This document shows, piece by piece, positions 37,924-49,541 of a DNA stretch of 64,000 nt. The notes under the pieces are model-generated. The model was not told the DNA's origin and did no database searches. It worked only from the letters and a program-made list of their open reading frames with translations. The stretch's first letter is position 1, and every line of letters begins with the position of its first letter. This DNA comes from Gemmatimonadota bacterium. GTDB taxonomy: Bacteria > Gemmatimonadota > Gemmatimonadetes > Longimicrobiales > Gaopeijiaceae. The position numbers were made by a program, and so were the translations under genes. The stretch is from NCBI GenBank assembly GCA_007121555.1, contig SKKH01000110.1, positions 1-64,000 on the forward strand. Reading direction: 5' to 3'.

Positions 37924-39006
37924 CTACTCCTGAACTTCCTCCATCCGGTTCGGCTCTGAGCGGCCCCTTCCCCTGGCGATGCCTCCGTTTTCGGATCCTC
38001 CTGCCTGGTCCTTCTCGGGAGCTGCGTCCTCCACCGGGGTGGCCACGTGGACCAGGGCGTCGCCGCGGTTCACGTTGGGCTGGCGGGTGAGTCCGATGAT
38101 CACACCCGATCGGTTCGTCTTGATCGGGAGCGTCCGATCGCCGAATGCGTCACGGATGACCCCGATGCGGTCACCCTTCGCGACCCGATCACCGGGATCG
38201 ACGTGAATCCGCGCCAGCCCGCTCCGACCTGCCCGAATCCAGGCCGTGCTGCTGGATTCAATGGGGATCTCGGAGGGTGGGGGCGGGGCGGACTTCCGCA
38301 TTTCCATCGCCTGGATTACCCGCAGCACCCCGGCGAAGCCGGAGTCGATGACGTGCCGTTCGAACCGATGGGCCTCGCCCCCCTCGAAGACGAGGACCCG
38401 ACCCCCACGGGCCGTGGCTGCGGCCCGGAGGGAGCCGTCGCGGAGGCTGGCGTGGATCAGGGCGGGCGCTCCGAAGGCCCTGGCCAGCCGGGCCGTCTCC
38501 GGATCGGAGAGGTCGGCCCGGATCTGGGGAAGATTGGTCCGACCATCGGATCCCGTATGCAGGTCGATCCCCAGGTGGCACCCCGCCACGACCTCCCTCA
38601 TGAACAGGTGTGCCAGCCGGGAGGCCATGGAGCCCCGGGAGGAGCCCGGAAAGGAACGGTTCAGGTCCCTCCGGTCCGGGAGATACCGGGATTCGATGAT
38701 AAAGCCCTGGACGTTCACGATGGGGATGGCGAGAAGGGTCCCGGCCAGGCGACCCGGAGTCACCTCGCCCAGAACCTTCCGGACGACCTCGACACCGTTG
38801 AGTTCATCCCCGTGGATGGCGGCGCTGAGCCAGACGCGGGGTCCCGGACGGACGCCGTGGAGTACTTCGATGGGCAGGGTGAGCTTCCCTCCCGTGGCCA
38901 GGCTTCCGGCCGGAAGCTCGATTCGCTTCCGCTCGCCAGGGGCAACGGAGACCCCCGCTACGACCGCGGCCTCGTGCGCTCCCTCGTGGGGCTCGGGCAG
39001 GTTCAT
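37924..39006 (-). CDS. Succinylglutamate desuccinylase/aspartoacylase-family zinc hydrolase with lipoyl-like C-terminal domain
   Basis: A 360-residue metal-dependent acyl/peptide hydrolase of the M14-like AspA/AstE branch. Zinc ligands are visible: His65 and Glu68 in [13 protein letters not shown] and His150 in [10 protein letters not shown]; the substrate-binding DLNRSFPGS is at 114-122. From about residue 275 ([20 protein letters not shown] onward, VAKGDRIGV) lies a biotinyl/lipoyl-like barrel typical of this subfamily. The last 35 residues are charged and disordered. The ATG overlaps the RimK stop by four bases. In the RimK operon it could trim an acyl or amino-acid chain from the modified protein (inference). 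Confidence 0.9.
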
Positions 39007-39908
39007 CCCGTGCCGACTCGACGCTCGATGAACTCGATGACCTTTCCGGCCACATCGACCCCCGTGGCGCCTTCGACCCCCTCGAGACCCGGTGAGGAGT
39101 TCACCTCGATGACCACCGGACCCCGCTCGGCCCGAAGCATGTCGACGCCGGCTACGGAAAGCCCCATGGTGGCGGCGGCGCGGATCGCCGTGCGCCGTTC
39201 CTCGGTGGTGAGTTCGATCCCCTCCGCGGTGCCCCCCTGGTGGAGGTTGGACCGGAAGTCCCCGGGGGCGGCTCGTCGGACCATGGCGGCGACGACCTTC
39301 TTTCCCACGACGATTGCCCGGAGGTCCTCTCCTCCCGCCTCCTTGATGTACTCCTGGACCAGGATGTTGGCGTCGAGCTGTCGGAAGGCCCCGATCACCG
39401 ACTCGGCCGCCTTGCGGGTCTCGGCCAGCACCACCCCCACGCCCTGGGTTCCCTCGAGCAACTTCACCACCACCGGAGGCCCGCCGACCCGGTCGATGAG
39501 CCCCTTCGTGTGCCGGGTGGAGTGGGCGAAGGTGGTCGTGGGCAGGCCCACCCCCGCTCGGGAGAGGAGTTGCATGGAACGGAGCTTGTCCCGGGCCTGG
39601 GTGATTCCGTCGGATTGACCTGCGCTGAAGGTGCCCATCATCTCGAACTGCCGGACGACTGCAGTACCGTAGTAGGTATAGGAGGCCCCGATCCTCGGGA
39701 TCACCGCGTCGAACTGAAGTTCCTCCTCGGTGGCGTTCCGGTCCGCAACCAGATCCTGATAGATCACCGAAGGTCGCTCCGCCGTGATGTCCATGTAGCA
39801 GCGGAGGTAGTTCACGACCCGAACGTCGTGGCCCCGCTCCTGTGCGGCCTCCATGAGCCGGGAGGTGGAGTAGAGAGAGGCCTTTCGGGACAGAATTCCG
39901 ATCTTCAA
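39003..39908 (-). CDS. rimK: RimK-type ATP-grasp ligase
   Basis: An ATP-dependent carboxylate-amine ligase. In Escherichia coli RimK adds glutamates to the C-terminus of ribosomal protein S6. The TTG at 39908 gives 301 residues (E. coli 300) and starts [20 protein letters not shown], matching KIAILSRDGTLYS of the family. The ATP-grasp lobe has [39 protein letters not shown] and the metal-binding [11 protein letters not shown]. The frame is open further back to 39998, but that stretch is not RimK-like. The TTG overlaps the RimB-like gene's stop by four bases (TTGA), which independently fixes the start. Whether it acts on S6 is unknown: no other target is visible here. Confidence 0.95.
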
Positions 39909-40435
39909 GAAGGGGTCTCGGTTGGGGGGACGTCGGAGCGGGTGGAGTGGCCGGGCGGCTGGCCCAGGAGGAACGAGGCACCTGGATCCACCAGGCACCG
40001 CCCTCGGAGGGCTGTACGGCCCAGTAGCATCCGGAACCCCATCCGATCCCGTCGAGTCAGGGTCACCTCCACGGGCCAGCGATAGGGCCCCAGCCCCAGG
40101 GTGAGTTGGACCGTGGGACGGGGTTCGGACACCCCGCTGGAGCTCCGGACCTTCCGATGGTCCACCAGAGGAGCCCGGATCTCCACGGGATCGTCGTTGC
40201 GTCGCTGATGAGGGTGGAGGAGGAAACGGATCCAGCCCTCACCCCCGGTGCGGATTCGGGTGGCATGAAGGGCCGACGAGCGAGCTCCGGTGTCCACCTT
40301 GGCCTTGATGGGGGGCGACGAGGTGTCGGGAAGTGTGATCCACTCCCGCCAACCCACCAGAATCAGGCCGTCTTCGCGCCCTCCGGACTCCACGGGCTCC
40401 ACAGGGGAGTTCAGGGGGTCAGCCTCATGGGTCAT
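39905..40435 (-). CDS. rimB: RimB-like retropepsin-type protease (DUF785)
   Basis: A 176-residue retropepsin-like protein of the DUF785 (ATP-dependent zinc protease, RimB) family. Its active-site signature is [18 protein letters not shown], with Asp48-Thr-Gly, and [20 protein letters not shown] and [19 protein letters not shown] follow. In Pseudomonas, RimB and RimA modulate RimK's glutamate ligation. The ATG at 40435 has GAGG five bases upstream. It is the first gene of a tight operon with rimK and the zinc hydrolase, with four-base overlaps throughout. Its last 20 residues are disordered. Confidence 0.88.
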
Positions 40436-41098: not shown

Positions 41099-41445
41099 GC
41101 CTCGGGACCCTTCTTCGAACGGGGGCGCCCGTGCCCTGAGTGCATGGGTGCCCCAGGGTCACTCCTCTGTGTTACCCCCTCTCCCAAAACAGTCCCGCAG
41201 GGTGGCGAAGGCCAGTAAATATGCGGGGTTTCACCGGATCGCCTCTCTTGACGCCCCCTGAACCTGCTCTTACCGTAGTTTCAAGCTCTGGCCGGGGACT
41301 CCGGATGGCTCGGCCGGGAATCAGGAAGGGCATCGCTCCGAGGAACGAGCTTCGGAGGTGCCTGCAGGGCGGTTCTTCGCTGATGCGCCGAATTCCTTCG
41401 GTCTCAGCGGTCCCCACATCATTATCCAATCGAGGAGTGACCCAG
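41099..41445. other. Upstream region of the HU gene
   Basis: A 347-base gap with no gene I can support. It carries the promoter at 41248-41276 and a leader of about 160 bases before the HU start; the remainder is GC-rich and plain. Confidence 0.5.
41248..41276 (+). promoter_or_regulatory. Sigma-70-like promoter of the HU gene
   Basis: TTGACG (41248-41253) and TACCGT (41271-41276) are separated by exactly 17 bases. The -35 matches five of six consensus bases and the -10 keeps T, A and final T. Transcription would start near 41283, about 163 bases ahead of the HU start. Confidence 0.55.
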
Positions 41446-41733
41446 ATGAACAAATCCGAGCTCGTGGATGCTTTGGCCGATGCAACCGGAATGACGAAGG
41501 CCGACTCCGGCAAGGCGATCGATGCCCTGTTCGACACGGACAGCGGTGTGATCGCCACGGCTCTCAAGAAGGGCGAGCGGGTCCAGATCACCGGCTTCGG
41601 CACGCTGGAGACCAAGCAGCGGAAGGCCCGCACCGGCCGGAACCCCCGGACTGGTGAGACGATCAAGATCCCCGCGACCAAGACTCCGAGCTTCCGGGCG
41701 GGGAAGGGGCTCAAGGACGCAGTGAAGTCCTGA
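41446..41733 (+). CDS. hup: HU-family nucleoid protein
   Basis: A 95-residue DNA-bending protein that packs the chromosome. It has the standard opening MNKSELVDALADATGMTKAD, the beta-arm RTGNRNP-type motif as ARTGRNPRTGETIKIPATKT, and the C-terminal PSFRAGKGLKDAVKS. Between helix 2 and the first strand, the sequence LFDTDSGVIATALKKGERVQ is about four residues longer than in Escherichia coli HU. GAGGAG eight bases upstream fixes the ATG at 41446. A strong intrinsic terminator follows. Confidence 0.96.
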   Translation: MNKSELVDALADATGMTKADSGKAIDALFDTDSGVIATALKKGERVQITGFGTLETKQRKARTGRNPRTGETIKIPATKTPSFRAGKGLKDAVKS

Positions 41734-41762
41734 TCTGAACCCCCGTAGTTCCAGGGAGCGAA

Positions 41763-41802
41763 GGGGCCGCATCCTTACCGGGATGCGGCCCCTTTTCTTT
41801 TT
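41763..41802 (+). terminator. Strong rho-independent terminator of the HU gene
   Basis: A perfect 12-bp stem (GGGGCCGCATCC with GGATGCGGCCCC) around the loop TTACCG, followed by TTTTCTTTTT. It begins 30 bases after the HU stop and is the clearest terminator in the window. Confidence 0.95.
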
Positions 41803-41821: not shown

Positions 41822-43462
41822 TCAACTGGAGGCCGGGCCCCTGCGTCGACTCGGGGGAGCCCCGCGCCCCGACTTCTCCCCTCTCCCGCCTCCCGGTTTT
41901 TCCCCCCGTCCGTGGTCCCGGGCACCCCCGCGATCGAAATCGACCCGCACGCTGCGGCCACGGATCGAGGTGCCGTTCAGGGCCTGGATCACTTCCTGGG
42001 CTCGGTGGTCCTGCACGTCCACGCGGGAGAAGGTGTCCTTCACATCGATCCGGCCCACCTCGTCGCCCTTGAGACCGGCCTCGCCAGTGATGGCGCCGAG
42101 GAGGTCGCCAGGTCCCGCTCCGTCCTTGCTGCCCACGCTGATGAAGAGGCGCGCCCAGGCCGGTGGCCGGTCGCCGGGAGTCGATCCGGCAGTCGCTCCT
42201 CTGGCCGACGCGGCACTCCCGTCGGCGGCTCCCTGATCCCGGAGGAGGGCGGCCAGCGCCGCTGCCACCTCCACCCCCGAGGTCTCCTCGAGCAGTGGGT
42301 CCAGAAGGGTAACGTACGCGCTCAGGTCCCGTTCCCGGAGGGCCTGTCGGATCGACTCCCGGAAGGTCTCCACCTCCGCGAGCATGGCGGCTGGGGTGGA
42401 GCCCCGGTCCTTGAGCCGATACCCGGCTTCCTTGGCCAGCCGCCGGAGGTGGGGGACCTCGCGGGGCTCGGCCACGAGGACGCCAGTGCTTTGTCCCCCT
42501 CCGTGACGTCGGTCCAGGGTGTCCGCGTCCAGAGGCGGATCCAGCGAGAGAGTGGTGACGAGATCCACCGGGATCTCCTCCTCAGCCAGCGTCTTCCGGT
42601 CGGCCAGGGGATCCAGCCCCAGCCAGACCGGGACCGAGGGATCGCCAGGGGCGCCGGCGAGGAAGCCGTGAAGGGTGAGGAGGTCTCCCATGTCTGCGGC
42701 CCGGTCCTCGGAGCGGCAGAAGAGGAGCACGTGATGGCTCCCCTCGTCCAGGATCTGCGCGATGACTCCCACCGCCTCTCGCATGAGCTCGCCTCCCTCG
42801 GCCACATGGAGCTCCAGGACCCCTCGCTCCAGGGGCGCCTCGTCCGGATCTCCCCCCGCCGCGTCGCTGGGGATGAACACGGCCCTGCGGAGATGAGCGT
42901 CGATCCATTCCCTGACCATGGGCGAGATGGGGTCGGAGACGACGATCCCCTGCACGTTGCCCGCCTCCAGCGTCTCCAGCACCAGCTCCACTCGAGGCCG
43001 GTTCACCTCGTCGAGCAACATCGAAGCCCCCTCGATCACCAGCGCCTGGACCCCGTCCACCTTCACGTCAGCCGAGCGAATCGCCGCCTCCAGCGCCGCG
43101 GGGGTGGAGACGAGGATGTCCGCGTGGCCGGGGAGGGCCCATCCGTCCTGGAGGGCCGCGCATCGATGTCCGGTGGCCATCCCGAGGCGGGCGAGGGAGC
43201 GGGCGGTCCCTTCGGCGACCTCAGGAGTCGTGACGAGGACCAGCGCCACCGGTTGGCCCCCTCCAGGCTCGAGACGGCTCAGGAGGGCGGTGCCCCAGGC
43301 CACTCCGGCTCCGGCTCCGGGCCCGGCGCGGAGAACGGCCGGGTTGCCCCGGCGAAGGACGGGGATGGCGTCGGCCTGGAGCGAAGAAGGGATTTCAATC
43401 CCCTCGGCCGCCAGCGCTTCCACCAGTTCGGGCTCGAGGCCCAGGTCGTCGAAGGATTCCAT
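41822..43462 (-). CDS. Degenerate DEAD-box protein with intact DbpA RNA-binding domain
   Basis: A 546-residue protein with DEAD-box architecture but without its chemistry. The Q-motif region survives (FDDLGLEPELVEALAAEGIE, then IPSSLQADAIPVLRRG, Gln29). The Walker A site reads AGPGAGAG (46-53) where AxTGxGKT is needed: Lys is Ala52 and Thr is Gly53. Motif II is EGAS (144-147) instead of DEAD. Motif III SAT and the arginine fingers of motif VI (HRxGRxGR) are absent. ATP hydrolysis is therefore unlikely. The C-terminal domain (about 435-510: ARLFISVGSKDGAGPGDLLG and AITGEAGLKGDEVGRIDVKD) is a good DbpA RNA-binding domain, followed by an arginine/glycine-rich tail (GGGRGEKSGRGAPPSRRRG). Probably an RNA-binding factor without helicase activity. 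Confidence 0.85.
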   Translation of the reverse strand: MESFDDLGLEPELVEALAAEGIEIPSSLQADAIPVLRRGNPAVLRAGPGAGAGVAWGTALLSRLEPGGGQPVALVLVTTPEVAEGTARSLARLGMATGHRCAALQDGWALPGHADILVSTPAALEAAIRSADVKVDGVQALVIEGASMLLDEVNRPRVELVLETLEAGNVQGIVVSDPISPMVREWIDAHLRRAVFIPSDAAGGDPDEAPLERGVLELHVAEGGELMREAVGVIAQILDEGSHHVLLFCRSEDRAADMGDLLTLHGFLAGAPGDPSVPVWLGLDPLADRKTLAEEEIPVDLVTTLSLDPPLDADTLDRRHGGGQSTGVLVAEPREVPHLRRLAKEAGYRLKDRGSTPAAMLAEVETFRESIRQALRERDLSAYVTLLDPLLEETSGVEVAAALAALLRDQGAADGSAASARGATAGSTPGDRPPAWARLFISVGSKDGAGPGDLLGAITGEAGLKGDEVGRIDVKDTFSRVDVQDHRAQEVIQALNGTSIRGRSVRVDFDRGGARDHGRGEKPGGGRGEKSGRGAPPSRRRGPASS

Positions 43463-43524: not shown

Positions 43525-43860
43525 TCAGGAGGGGTCACCGGAGCCGTCGCCGCCCTGATCCCCCTCCTCATAGGGGAGGAGGTTCAGGAACCGCTGGATC
43601 TCGTAGTCCATTCGGGAGGTGCGAAGCTGGTCCGTCTCCGCCACCACCTCCGTGTACATGGAATGGCGGTGTGCGTGGACGGAGACCGTGCCCTCCTCTC
43701 CAGAGTAGGTGACGGAATGGTCCGAAGACTTCTTCGGGGACAGCCCCAGCCGGTGGGGAAGAAATATCGCGGCCTCGCTCAGCACCCGAGAGGGGGAGGC
43801 GACCGTTTTCCGAACGTATCCAGCCATCTCGCGTTTGCTCCGTATCTTGGTATGGATCAT
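43525..43860 (-). CDS. Uncharacterised 111-residue protein
   Basis: I do not recognise this protein. It has no signal peptide or membrane helix. MIHTKIRSKREMAGYVRKTV begins it, followed by SVTYSGEEGTVSVHAHRHSM and LRTSRMDYEIQRFLNLLPYE, which suggest a small alpha/beta fold with a conserved-looking end. The ATG at 43860 overlaps the DsbA-like gene's stop by four bases (ATGA), so it is coupled to that gene. The C-terminal 17 residues are acidic and disordered. Confidence 0.6.
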   Translation of the reverse strand: MIHTKIRSKREMAGYVRKTVASPSRVLSEAAIFLPHRLGLSPKKSSDHSVTYSGEEGTVSVHAHRHSMYTEVVAETDQLRTSRMDYEIQRFLNLLPYEEGDQGGDGSGDPS

Positions 43861-44459
43861 GTGGCGGCCTCCAGGAAGGTGGCCACCTCGTCCGCTCCAC
43901 TGAACCCCTCCAGCCGAAGATCCCTTCGGACGAGGGTGGGGACGCCCCGGATCTTCAGCCTCGCGGCCTCTTCCCGGGCCTCCCTGACCACCGGCTCGAA
44001 ACGGTCCACGCCCAGGACCGTGCGGGCCTCGGCTGGATCCAGTCCGGCCTCCTCGGCCAGGCCGATGAGGACATCCACCCGTCCCAGGTCGAGGCCCTTC
44101 TCGAAGTGGGCCCGGAAGAGGCGGGAGTGAATCCGACTCTTCCGGCCCCTCACCTCCATGGCATGCAGGGCCAACTCGTGCGCTTTCCGCGTCCACGGAA
44201 TCAGCGTGGGAGGGGAAAAGGGAAGGTCGAGGTCTCGTGCTTCCCGTGCCAGGGCCCGGGTCATCTGTTGCCAGTCCGTATCGTCTGCGGCCAGGAGGGA
44301 GGCGGGTGGGGGTCGCAGCTCCAGGGGGATCCACTCCACCCCCGTGCCTCCATCTTCACCCGGGCCGTCCAGCCGCCGCACCAGGAGTTCGTGGACCAGG
44401 TACGAGCCGGGGTCCACGAAATCGAAGTAGAAGTGGAGTGGGTCCGCCTCCTCGGTCAC
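43857..44459 (-). CDS. DsbA-fold protein lacking the CxxC motif (HCCA isomerase-like)
   Basis: A 200-residue thioredoxin/DsbA-fold protein. The first strand reads LHFYFDFVDPGSYLVHELLV, where oxidoreductases would have CxxC; here DPGS replaces it, as in 2-hydroxychromene-2-carboxylate isomerase-like glutathione-dependent enzymes (YFDFxSPxSY). The helical insertion (about 55-150) and the cis-proline strand IRGVPTLVRRDLRLEGFSGA complete the fold. A redox role is unlikely; an isomerase or glutathione-transferase-type role is possible. The start is a GTG. It is coupled to the 111-residue gene. Confidence 0.8.
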   Translation of the reverse strand: MTEEADPLHFYFDFVDPGSYLVHELLVRRLDGPGEDGGTGVEWIPLELRPPPASLLAADDTDWQQMTRALAREARDLDLPFSPPTLIPWTRKAHELALHAMEVRGRKSRIHSRLFRAHFEKGLDLGRVDVLIGLAEEAGLDPAEARTVLGVDRFEPVVREAREEAARLKIRGVPTLVRRDLRLEGFSGADEVATFLEAAT

Positions 44460-48269: not shown

Positions 48270-49541
48270 GTGATGGAGTCAAACTTGGACGAAGTCGTAA
48301 CATTCAAGAGTCTCGGCCTCTCGCAGGAGCGCCTTGCCGCCATTGAAGCTCAGGGGTGGACCCACCCCACCCCGATTCAGCAGAAGGGAATCCCACCGGC
48401 CATGGAAGGTCGGGATGTCGTGGGGGTCGCCCAGACCGGTACCGGAAAGACCGGCGCTTTCATGATTCCCTCCCTCGAAAAGGTCGAGCCGGGGAAAGGC
48501 CTGCAGGTGCTGACCCTCTGCCCCACACGTGAATTGGCCCAGCAGGTGGCCGCAGATGCCCGCCTTCTCTCGAAGGGCACAAACCTCCGGGTCGCGGACG
48601 TGGTCGGGGGAGTGGGATACGAGCCGCAGATCGAGGCCCTGAGAGGCGGTTGGGAGATCATTGCGGCCACCCCCGGACGGTTCAACGATCACATGAGCCG
48701 CAAGAACGTGGATCTGACGGGGCTCAAGGTTCTGATCCTGGACGAGGCCGACCGGATGCTGGACATGGGATTCCGTCCCCAGATCGAAGATGTGCTCCAG
48801 CGGACCCCCCGTGACCGTCAGAGCATGCTCTTCTCGGCGACGATGCCCAACGGCGTCCACGCCCTCGCCCTGCGGATCACCAAGGACCCGGCCTGGATCG
48901 AGGCCACCCCCTCGGGCACCGTCGCGGATCTCATCGATGAACACGTCTACATGGTGAAGCCGGCGAAGAAGCCCGAGCTCCTCGTGACGCTGCTGGAGGA
49001 CCCCGGGTGGGATCAGGTTCTGGTGTTCAGCCGTACGAAGGCTGGAGCGGACGCGCTCAGCGCTCGGCTGGGACGGGCCGGAGTGACGACCGACACCATG
49101 CATTCGGATCGACGGATGCAGCACCGGGTTCGAGCGTTGGACCGGTTCGCGACCGGAGAGGTGCGGGTTCTGGTCGCCACCGACGTAGCCCAGCGGGGCC
49201 TCGATGTGGAGGGGATTTCCCATGTGGTGAACTACGACGTGCCCATGGACCCCGAAGACTACGTCCACCGGATCGGTCGAACGGGCCGTGCCGGTTCGGC
49301 GGGCACCGCGGTGACCTTCGTGACCGCGGGGGAGCTGGGCTACCTGAGGTCCATCGAGCACCGGCTGGGCCGTGACCTGGATCGAACCTCCATGGACGGC
49401 TTCGACTACACGGGCGAATCCCAGGCCGCCAGCGGGAAGGATCGCCCCAAGCACCCCAGGAGCGCGGGCGGACTCGGCACCCGGTCCGCCGACGATCTCT
49501 CTGAAGAGGAGCTGCAGAAACTCCTTGGCTTTTCCAACTGA
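48270..49541 (+). CDS. DEAD-box RNA helicase, RhlE-like
   Basis: A 423-residue ATP-dependent RNA helicase with complete motifs: Q-motif FKSLGLSQERLAAIEAQGW and PTPIQQKGIPPA, Walker A AQTGTGKT (54-61), DEAD (158-161) in LILDEADRML, SAT (189-191) and the arginine fingers HRIGRTGRAG. The C-terminal tail is short and lacks a DbpA domain. It contrasts directly with the degenerate paralogue 5 kb away, which has the DbpA domain but no intact motifs. The GTG at 48270 and the ATG at 48273 are both possible starts. Confidence 0.95.
   Translation: MMESNLDEVVTFKSLGLSQERLAAIEAQGWTHPTPIQQKGIPPAMEGRDVVGVAQTGTGKTGAFMIPSLEKVEPGKGLQVLTLCPTRELAQQVAADARLLSKGTNLRVADVVGGVGYEPQIEALRGGWEIIAATPGRFNDHMSRKNVDLTGLKVLILDEADRMLDMGFRPQIEDVLQRTPRDRQSMLFSATMPNGVHALALRITKDPAWIEATPSGTVADLIDEHVYMVKPAKKPELLVTLLEDPGWDQVLVFSRTKAGADALSARLGRAGVTTDTMHSDRRMQHRVRALDRFATGEVRVLVATDVAQRGLDVEGISHVVNYDVPMDPEDYVHRIGRTGRAGSAGTAVTFVTAGELGYLRSIEHRLGRDLDRTSMDGFDYTGESQAASGKDRPKHPRSAGGLGTRSADDLSEEELQKLLGFSN

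Follow-up and report, generated by a model that had tools for sequence, protein, structure and literature searches.

In the literature searched, pseudohelicases appear as single cases, the eukaryotic protein Utp25 being one example. Utp25/Def, which belongs to the eukaryotic SSU processome, is predicted to have retained the DEAD-box fold with catalytic motifs that are dispensable or absent, is conserved and essential there, and was, in its authors' description, the first DEAD-box-like pseudohelicase to be fully validated (PMC9539457). A bacterial protein, PriA of Deinococcus radiodurans, has also been termed a pseudohelicase; it is a DNA replication-restart protein and not a member of the DEAD-box family (PMC4504706).

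Among active DEAD-box proteins, E. coli DbpA and B. subtilis YxiN are known for the way in which their C-terminal RNA-binding domain (RBD) finds its target. YxiN reads a guanine of 23S rRNA hairpin 92 through the main-chain amides of I436, G437 and I439; the RBD of Hera has the equivalent loop, binds a different RNA and does not read hairpin 92 specifically (PMC3695512). In DbpA it is the RRM that recruits the protein to hairpin 92 (PMC7973409). Searches for bacterial DEAD-box pseudohelicases and for DEAD-box proteins of Gemmatimonadota returned nothing in the open-access literature on the family described below, which is apparently an undescribed family of bacterial DEAD-box pseudohelicases, with about 100 natural sequences at hand. 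Unlike PriA these are DEAD-box-derived proteins, and they are analogous to Utp25/Def without being demonstrably related to it: Utp25/Def is eukaryotic, has an N-terminal accessory part and lacks a DbpA RBD (PMC9539457).

The window analysed, a stretch of 64,000 nucleotides from a Gemmatimonadota genome, contains on the minus strand a coding sequence of 546 residues with an ATG start (41822-43462), which is supported by the open reading frame, by orthologues and by constraint and is present as an earlier sequence-only reading had stated. It begins with a RecA1-like, degenerate DEAD domain (residues 1-200; 42863-43462, minus strand, as for all parts of this gene; Pfam DEAD, AF2 and Foldseek), followed by a RecA2-like domain with a shortened motif V region (residues 201-356; 42395-42862), assigned by hhalign to intact DeaD-type helicases. 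A DeaD-type dimerisation domain (residues 364-409; 42236-42373; PF25399), a DbpA-type RBD with the guanine loop VGRI (residues 438-507; 41942-42151; PF03880) and an RG/GR-rich basic tail (residues 511-546; 41825-41932), recognised in the sequence and similar to the tail of relatives, complete the protein. The Pfam matches were strong for the DbpA RBD (89.3 bits, E 1.6e-25), modest for DEAD (35.8 bits, E 8e-9, residues 27-171) and just over the cut-off for DeaD_dimer (25.6 bits), and Helicase_C gave no Pfam match in the 546 residues; for comparison, the ordinary helicase of the window (48270-49541) scored 163 bits with DEAD and 102 bits with Helicase_C. Because a DeaD-type dimerisation domain lies between RecA2 and the RBD, the architecture, as read from the domain matches, is of the DeaD/CsdA/Hera kind rather than that of DbpA proper. 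The earlier claim that a Q motif and a DbpA domain remain stands, with the dimerisation domain as a part that it overlooked.

Two artefacts were considered and rejected. A 591-residue ORF overlaps the gene on the antisense strand, which might make the gene a shadow ORF, but substitutions among close relatives fall mainly on third codon positions of the minus-strand frame and the minus-strand protein is conserved class-wide, so the minus-strand gene is real. A sequencing frameshift does not account for the loss of motifs either, since independent genomes show the same losses.

The decay of the catalytic motifs, also noticed earlier, was borne out by aligning the protein with the window's normal helicase at 48270-49541. 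At the position of motif I (Walker A; 43304-43327) it reads AGPGAGAG, without the lysine and threonine of AQTGTGKT; at motif II (43022-43033) EGAS replaces DEAD; at motif III (42923-42937) SDPIS replaces SATMP; and at motif VI (42494-42511) the alignment and hhalign place RRHGGG against HRIGRTGRAG, so that the arginine fingers are gone. The canonical motif V is also absent, ADRKTLAEEEI standing where the normal helicase has VATDVAQRGLD. All the signatures of an active DEAD-box enzyme (Walker A AxTGxGKT, DEAD, SAT, RGxD and HRxGRxGR) are thus missing from a protein that is homologous to helicases, which is what is meant here by a pseudohelicase. The Q-motif residues F4, P25 and Q29 are kept. 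Motifs Ia (TTPEV in place of PTREL) and Ib, with which the core binds RNA, are altered in addition to the ATP motifs, leaving a core with neither ATP-binding nor RNA-binding signatures. DEAD, SAT, motif V and motif VI are likewise missing in every full-length orthologue inspected, from three families of one order, and all of them are present in the intact paralogues L057-L060. Conversely, a RecA2 block, LLFCRSEDRAADxGDLLTLHGFxAGxPGD, is found in the window's family and is absent from intact helicases.

The likely ancestor was identified by profile comparison. When 30 orthologues were compared by hhalign with 10 intact helicases (nine of DeaD type and the window's own), the match ran full length (E 4.5e-67, 499 columns), and together with Pfam this gives collinear RecA1-RecA2-dimer-RBD homology with DeaD-type helicases. 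Given this domain order and profile match, the ancestor was probably a DeaD/CsdA-type helicase with a dimerisation domain and not DbpA itself. Intact helicases of this type from the same phylum (L057-L060 and L088) are collinear over their full length, with RecA1, RecA2, DeaD_dimer and RBD in the same order; the pseudohelicase differs from them in lacking the ATP and core RNA-binding motifs, in its shortened motif V region, in its RG-rich tail and in its place on a separate side of the tree. DbpA and YxiN are active, and the pseudohelicase, judged by its motifs, apparently is not; with the NCBIfam DbpA equivalog it scored 106 bits, below the cut-off of 524 bits.

In a maximum-likelihood tree of 49 proteins all dead members lay on one side of a branch with 100/100 support, with ten intact DeaD-type helicases and the window's other helicase on the other side, and rooting on the latter made the dead members a single clade. 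This agrees with a single ancient origin close to the base of the families sampled, a signal that long-branch attraction may exaggerate.

The structural evidence is uneven along the protein. In an AF2 model built from four sequences the RecA1 blocks mostly have pLDDT 70-90, and Foldseek aligned this part to the DEAD-box N-terminal domain 5gju with a TMt of 0.91. Over much of RecA2 the confidence is low (pLDDT about 30-50), and because the model is weak there the probable retention of the second RecA fold depends on profile comparison, which speaks for it, and on constraint. The top full-length fold match of the model in Foldseek was DbpA (7pli).

Full-length orthologues, 31-66% identical, were found in most of 57 relatives from three families of one order, and the named database relatives returned by a single database scan are metagenome assemblies of Gemmatimonadetes/Gemmatimonadales. 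Further afield (families are numbered f1, f2 and so on here), the phylum and class samples showed more degenerate relatives in most of the families covered within the class; distant ones came from families f4-f7 and f11, and in the class sample family f8 mostly lacked relatives of the protein. Over their whole length the distant relatives aligned with the family of the window (hhalign, E 3.3e-68) and with intact helicases (E 5.8e-47). When 127 homologous loci were scored for six catalytic motifs, 18 proved to be intact DeaD-type helicases with 5-6 motifs and the other 109, a figure that includes one duplicate fetch and several loci that end at contig edges, where the absence of a motif is uninformative, had no catalytic motifs beyond isolated string matches. 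No intermediate was seen between the two classes except L103, which keeps DEAD at motif II, has histidine for the Walker lysine and lacks motifs V and VI, and whose relatives read DGAD at motif II. L103 is a possible evolutionary intermediate and, since it keeps DEAD and its relatives have DGAD, the losses look stepwise.

The result is a graded natural series, from the almost intact AATGSGHE with DGAD (in one case still DEAD) through GPGAG with EGAS to proteins with no P-loop. It lets one ask what the DEAD-box body does without its motor, and whether the functions of DeaD/DbpA depend on ATP. It is a warning, too, that a protein annotated in these genomes as 'DEAD/DEAH box helicase' or 'DbpA' may be incapable of helicase activity.

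The same series bears on the suggestion that the protein has kept ATPase activity by means of a rebuilt, non-canonical active site. The P-loop glycines G49 and G51 are invariant within the order, and the P-loops read GPGAG at one end of their range, in the window's family, and GSGKT at the other, in part of family f3, so that nucleotide binding without hydrolysis is possible in those f3 members. The Walker lysine, the DEAD acids, SAT and the arginine fingers are all absent from the protein of the window, however, and the P-loop itself vanishes in families f4-f6, as it does in many of the f4-f7 and f11 relatives (e.g. LPHTTESI, with AWADDI at motif II). A rebuilt ATPase is accordingly considered very improbable.

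Loss of every catalytic motif could also mean that the gene is decaying and has been kept by chance. The sequence-only reading had argued that it is under constraint and not a simple pseudogene, had proposed a profile search for orthologues and dN/dS as checks, and had named loss of the reading frame in relatives as a sign to the contrary. The frame is open in the full-length orthologues across the order and class, and orthologues occur class-wide. Purifying selection was measured directly: dN/dS was 0.07-0.25 for most close orthologue pairs and 0.42 for one. By domain it was 0.10-0.23 in RecA1, 0.01-0.29 in RecA2, 0.10-0.35 in the dimer region and 0.02-0.16 in the RBD, against up to 0.67 in the linker; the low values in RecA1 and RecA2 relative to the linker show that the dead core is constrained in its own right. 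Family-specific invariant residues are present as well. These observations refute the pseudogene, which has next to no likelihood left, and the gene almost certainly encodes a conserved, functional, catalytically dead DEAD-box-derived protein, very likely with a useful role that is not the unwinding of RNA.

Compared with solved structures, the RBD matched E. coli DbpA (E 1e-7) and B. subtilis YxiN (E 4e-5) first and DeaD weakly. Its core loop is close to that of E. coli DbpA: the guanine-loop residues are kept as V-G-R-I, in agreement with the pattern I/V-G-x-I, and the loop glycine is present in 99 of the 99 dead members that have an RBD. These features make recognition of a guanine by this domain plausible without pointing to one particular RNA.

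The RBD is moreover not universal. In five members of family f5 (L113, L115, L119, L120 and L136) the dead core is kept and an R/G-rich tail replaces the RBD, which was not found in any nearby frame at these loci. As these five lost the RBD and kept the core, the common denominator of the family, read from the sequences, is not just the DbpA domain but the dead core, the dimer region and an RNA-prone C-terminus.

Both points weigh on the idea of a ribosome-assembly placeholder, in which the RBD would sit on 23S hairpin 92 as in DbpA and YxiN and the dead core, as an analogue of Utp25, would hold the peptidyl-transferase region or recruit an active helicase, such as that encoded by the neighbouring DEAD gene. 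It draws support from the invariant, DbpA-like guanine loop with the contacts seen in YxiN, from the recruitment of DbpA to hairpin 92 by its RRM, from a RimK-like/zinc-protease gene pair about 1.4 kb away in the window's genus and some relatives, and from the active helicase 5 kb away. Against it, the RBD of Hera has this loop and yet does not recognise hairpin 92 specifically, the RBD has been lost altogether in the five relatives, and the conserved neighbourhood contains no ribosomal operon. Ribosome assembly at hairpin 92 leads among the specific roles, and the placeholder is a possible explanation, if a somewhat unlikely one. The sequence-only reading had gone the same way: its RNA-binding adaptor remains plausible for a conserved, apparently dead helicase descendant with an intact RBD, and its suggestion of ribosome assembly gains from the loop and loses by Hera and the five relatives.

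The gene content of the genomes addresses whether an intact partner is needed. No protein of the window's genome other than the pseudohelicase has a DbpA RBD or a DeaD_dimer domain; this assembly is 93% complete, so that absence in one genome is weak evidence taken alone, made firmer by congeners, in three of four of which the single RBD protein is again the dead copy. Most family-f1 genomes also lack an intact RBD-bearing helicase and have the dead copy alone. Most of family f3 and 6 of 33 f1 genomes have two RBD proteins, and in the cases inspected the second of them was an intact DeaD-type helicase. The protein could, by analogy with pseudokinases that modulate kinases, be a regulatory subunit forming a heterodimer with an intact DeaD-type helicase through the DeaD dimer domain, which dead and intact proteins have in common, and the genomes with two RBD proteins would suit this. 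With only the dead copy in the window's genome and three of the four congeners, an obligatory intact DeaD partner is unlikely, and as a general role obligate partnership was rejected, since most f1 genomes have no such paralogue. A regulatory subunit is for these reasons thought improbable.

The mechanism that we favour, with modest confidence, is a probably dimeric scaffold that binds RNA independently of ATP. A DeaD/CsdA-type helicase would have been stripped of the motifs with which it bound and hydrolysed ATP and bound RNA through its core, and would have retained the body of two RecA domains, the dimerisation helices and a C-terminus that binds RNA. The dimer would hold two RNA-binding modules, each a DbpA-type RBD with an RG-rich tail, and the dead core would serve as a fixed platform for protein-protein contacts or RNA docking. 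Such a protein might be an RNA chaperone or scaffold that works without ATP, e.g. a factor in assembly or regulation that occupies structured RNA or marks it; 23S rRNA around hairpin 92 would be the leading candidate target. We infer the ATPase inactivity, the dimerisation (from the marginal Pfam match), the RNA binding and its target. Because the ancestor was probably of DeaD type with a dimerisation domain, a dimeric scaffold is no less likely than an adaptor that simply binds rRNA. A wider proposal, put forward as speculation and rather unlikely in its entirety, is that a DeaD-type helicase turned once, early in Gemmatimonadota, into an RNA assembly factor independent of ATP, which most of the class inherited and which is in many lineages the only DeaD/DbpA-domain protein left, doing without catalysis a job (e.g. 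late 50S assembly) that ATP-driven helicases do elsewhere.

The neighbourhood is conserved in the order HU - pseudohelicase - orphan - DsbA-like - aminotransferase ... LMW phosphatase - DEAD helicase in most of family f1 and partly beyond. The last of these is the intact helicase at 48270-49541 on the plus strand, recognised by Pfam and lying 5 kb away in conserved synteny, which has no RBD. Directly upstream of the pseudohelicase, and a possible operon partner by synteny, is a gene for a conserved orphan protein of 100 residues (43525-43827, minus strand), preceded by a DsbA-like thioredoxin gene (43857-44459, minus strand; Pfam DSBA and synteny) that may be the first of a three-gene DsbA-orphan-pseudohelicase run. 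The orphan had no match in Pfam or NCBIfam. AF2 gave it a confident beta-alpha-beta4-alpha fold (pLDDT 85), and its nearest folds in the PDB were KA1 domains, a match too weak (E above 1e-3) for an assignment. It was found in 89 of 121 sampled genomes of the phylum, lies beside the pseudohelicase gene in almost the whole of family f1 and the majority of f2, and is present without this linkage in most other genomes across the class. It is a possible candidate partner; the case for an obligate partner is weakened, as outside the order the orphan, though widespread, is not linked to the pseudohelicase.

Further along the window, at 37927-40435 on the minus strand, genes for an AstE/AspA-like protein, a RimK-like ATP-grasp protein and an ATP-dependent zinc protease stand in a row that recalls rimK-type ribosomal-protein modification genes and is conserved in nearer relatives only. 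Between the convergent HU and pseudohelicase genes a stem search found a terminator-like stem of 16 pairs (41760-41795), one of 2 terminator-like sites in the region where shuffled sequences would give 1.6. The HU-like gene itself (41140-41733, plus strand) is listed as an ORF with about 100 extra N-terminal residues, and its true start is probably internal, near 41440.
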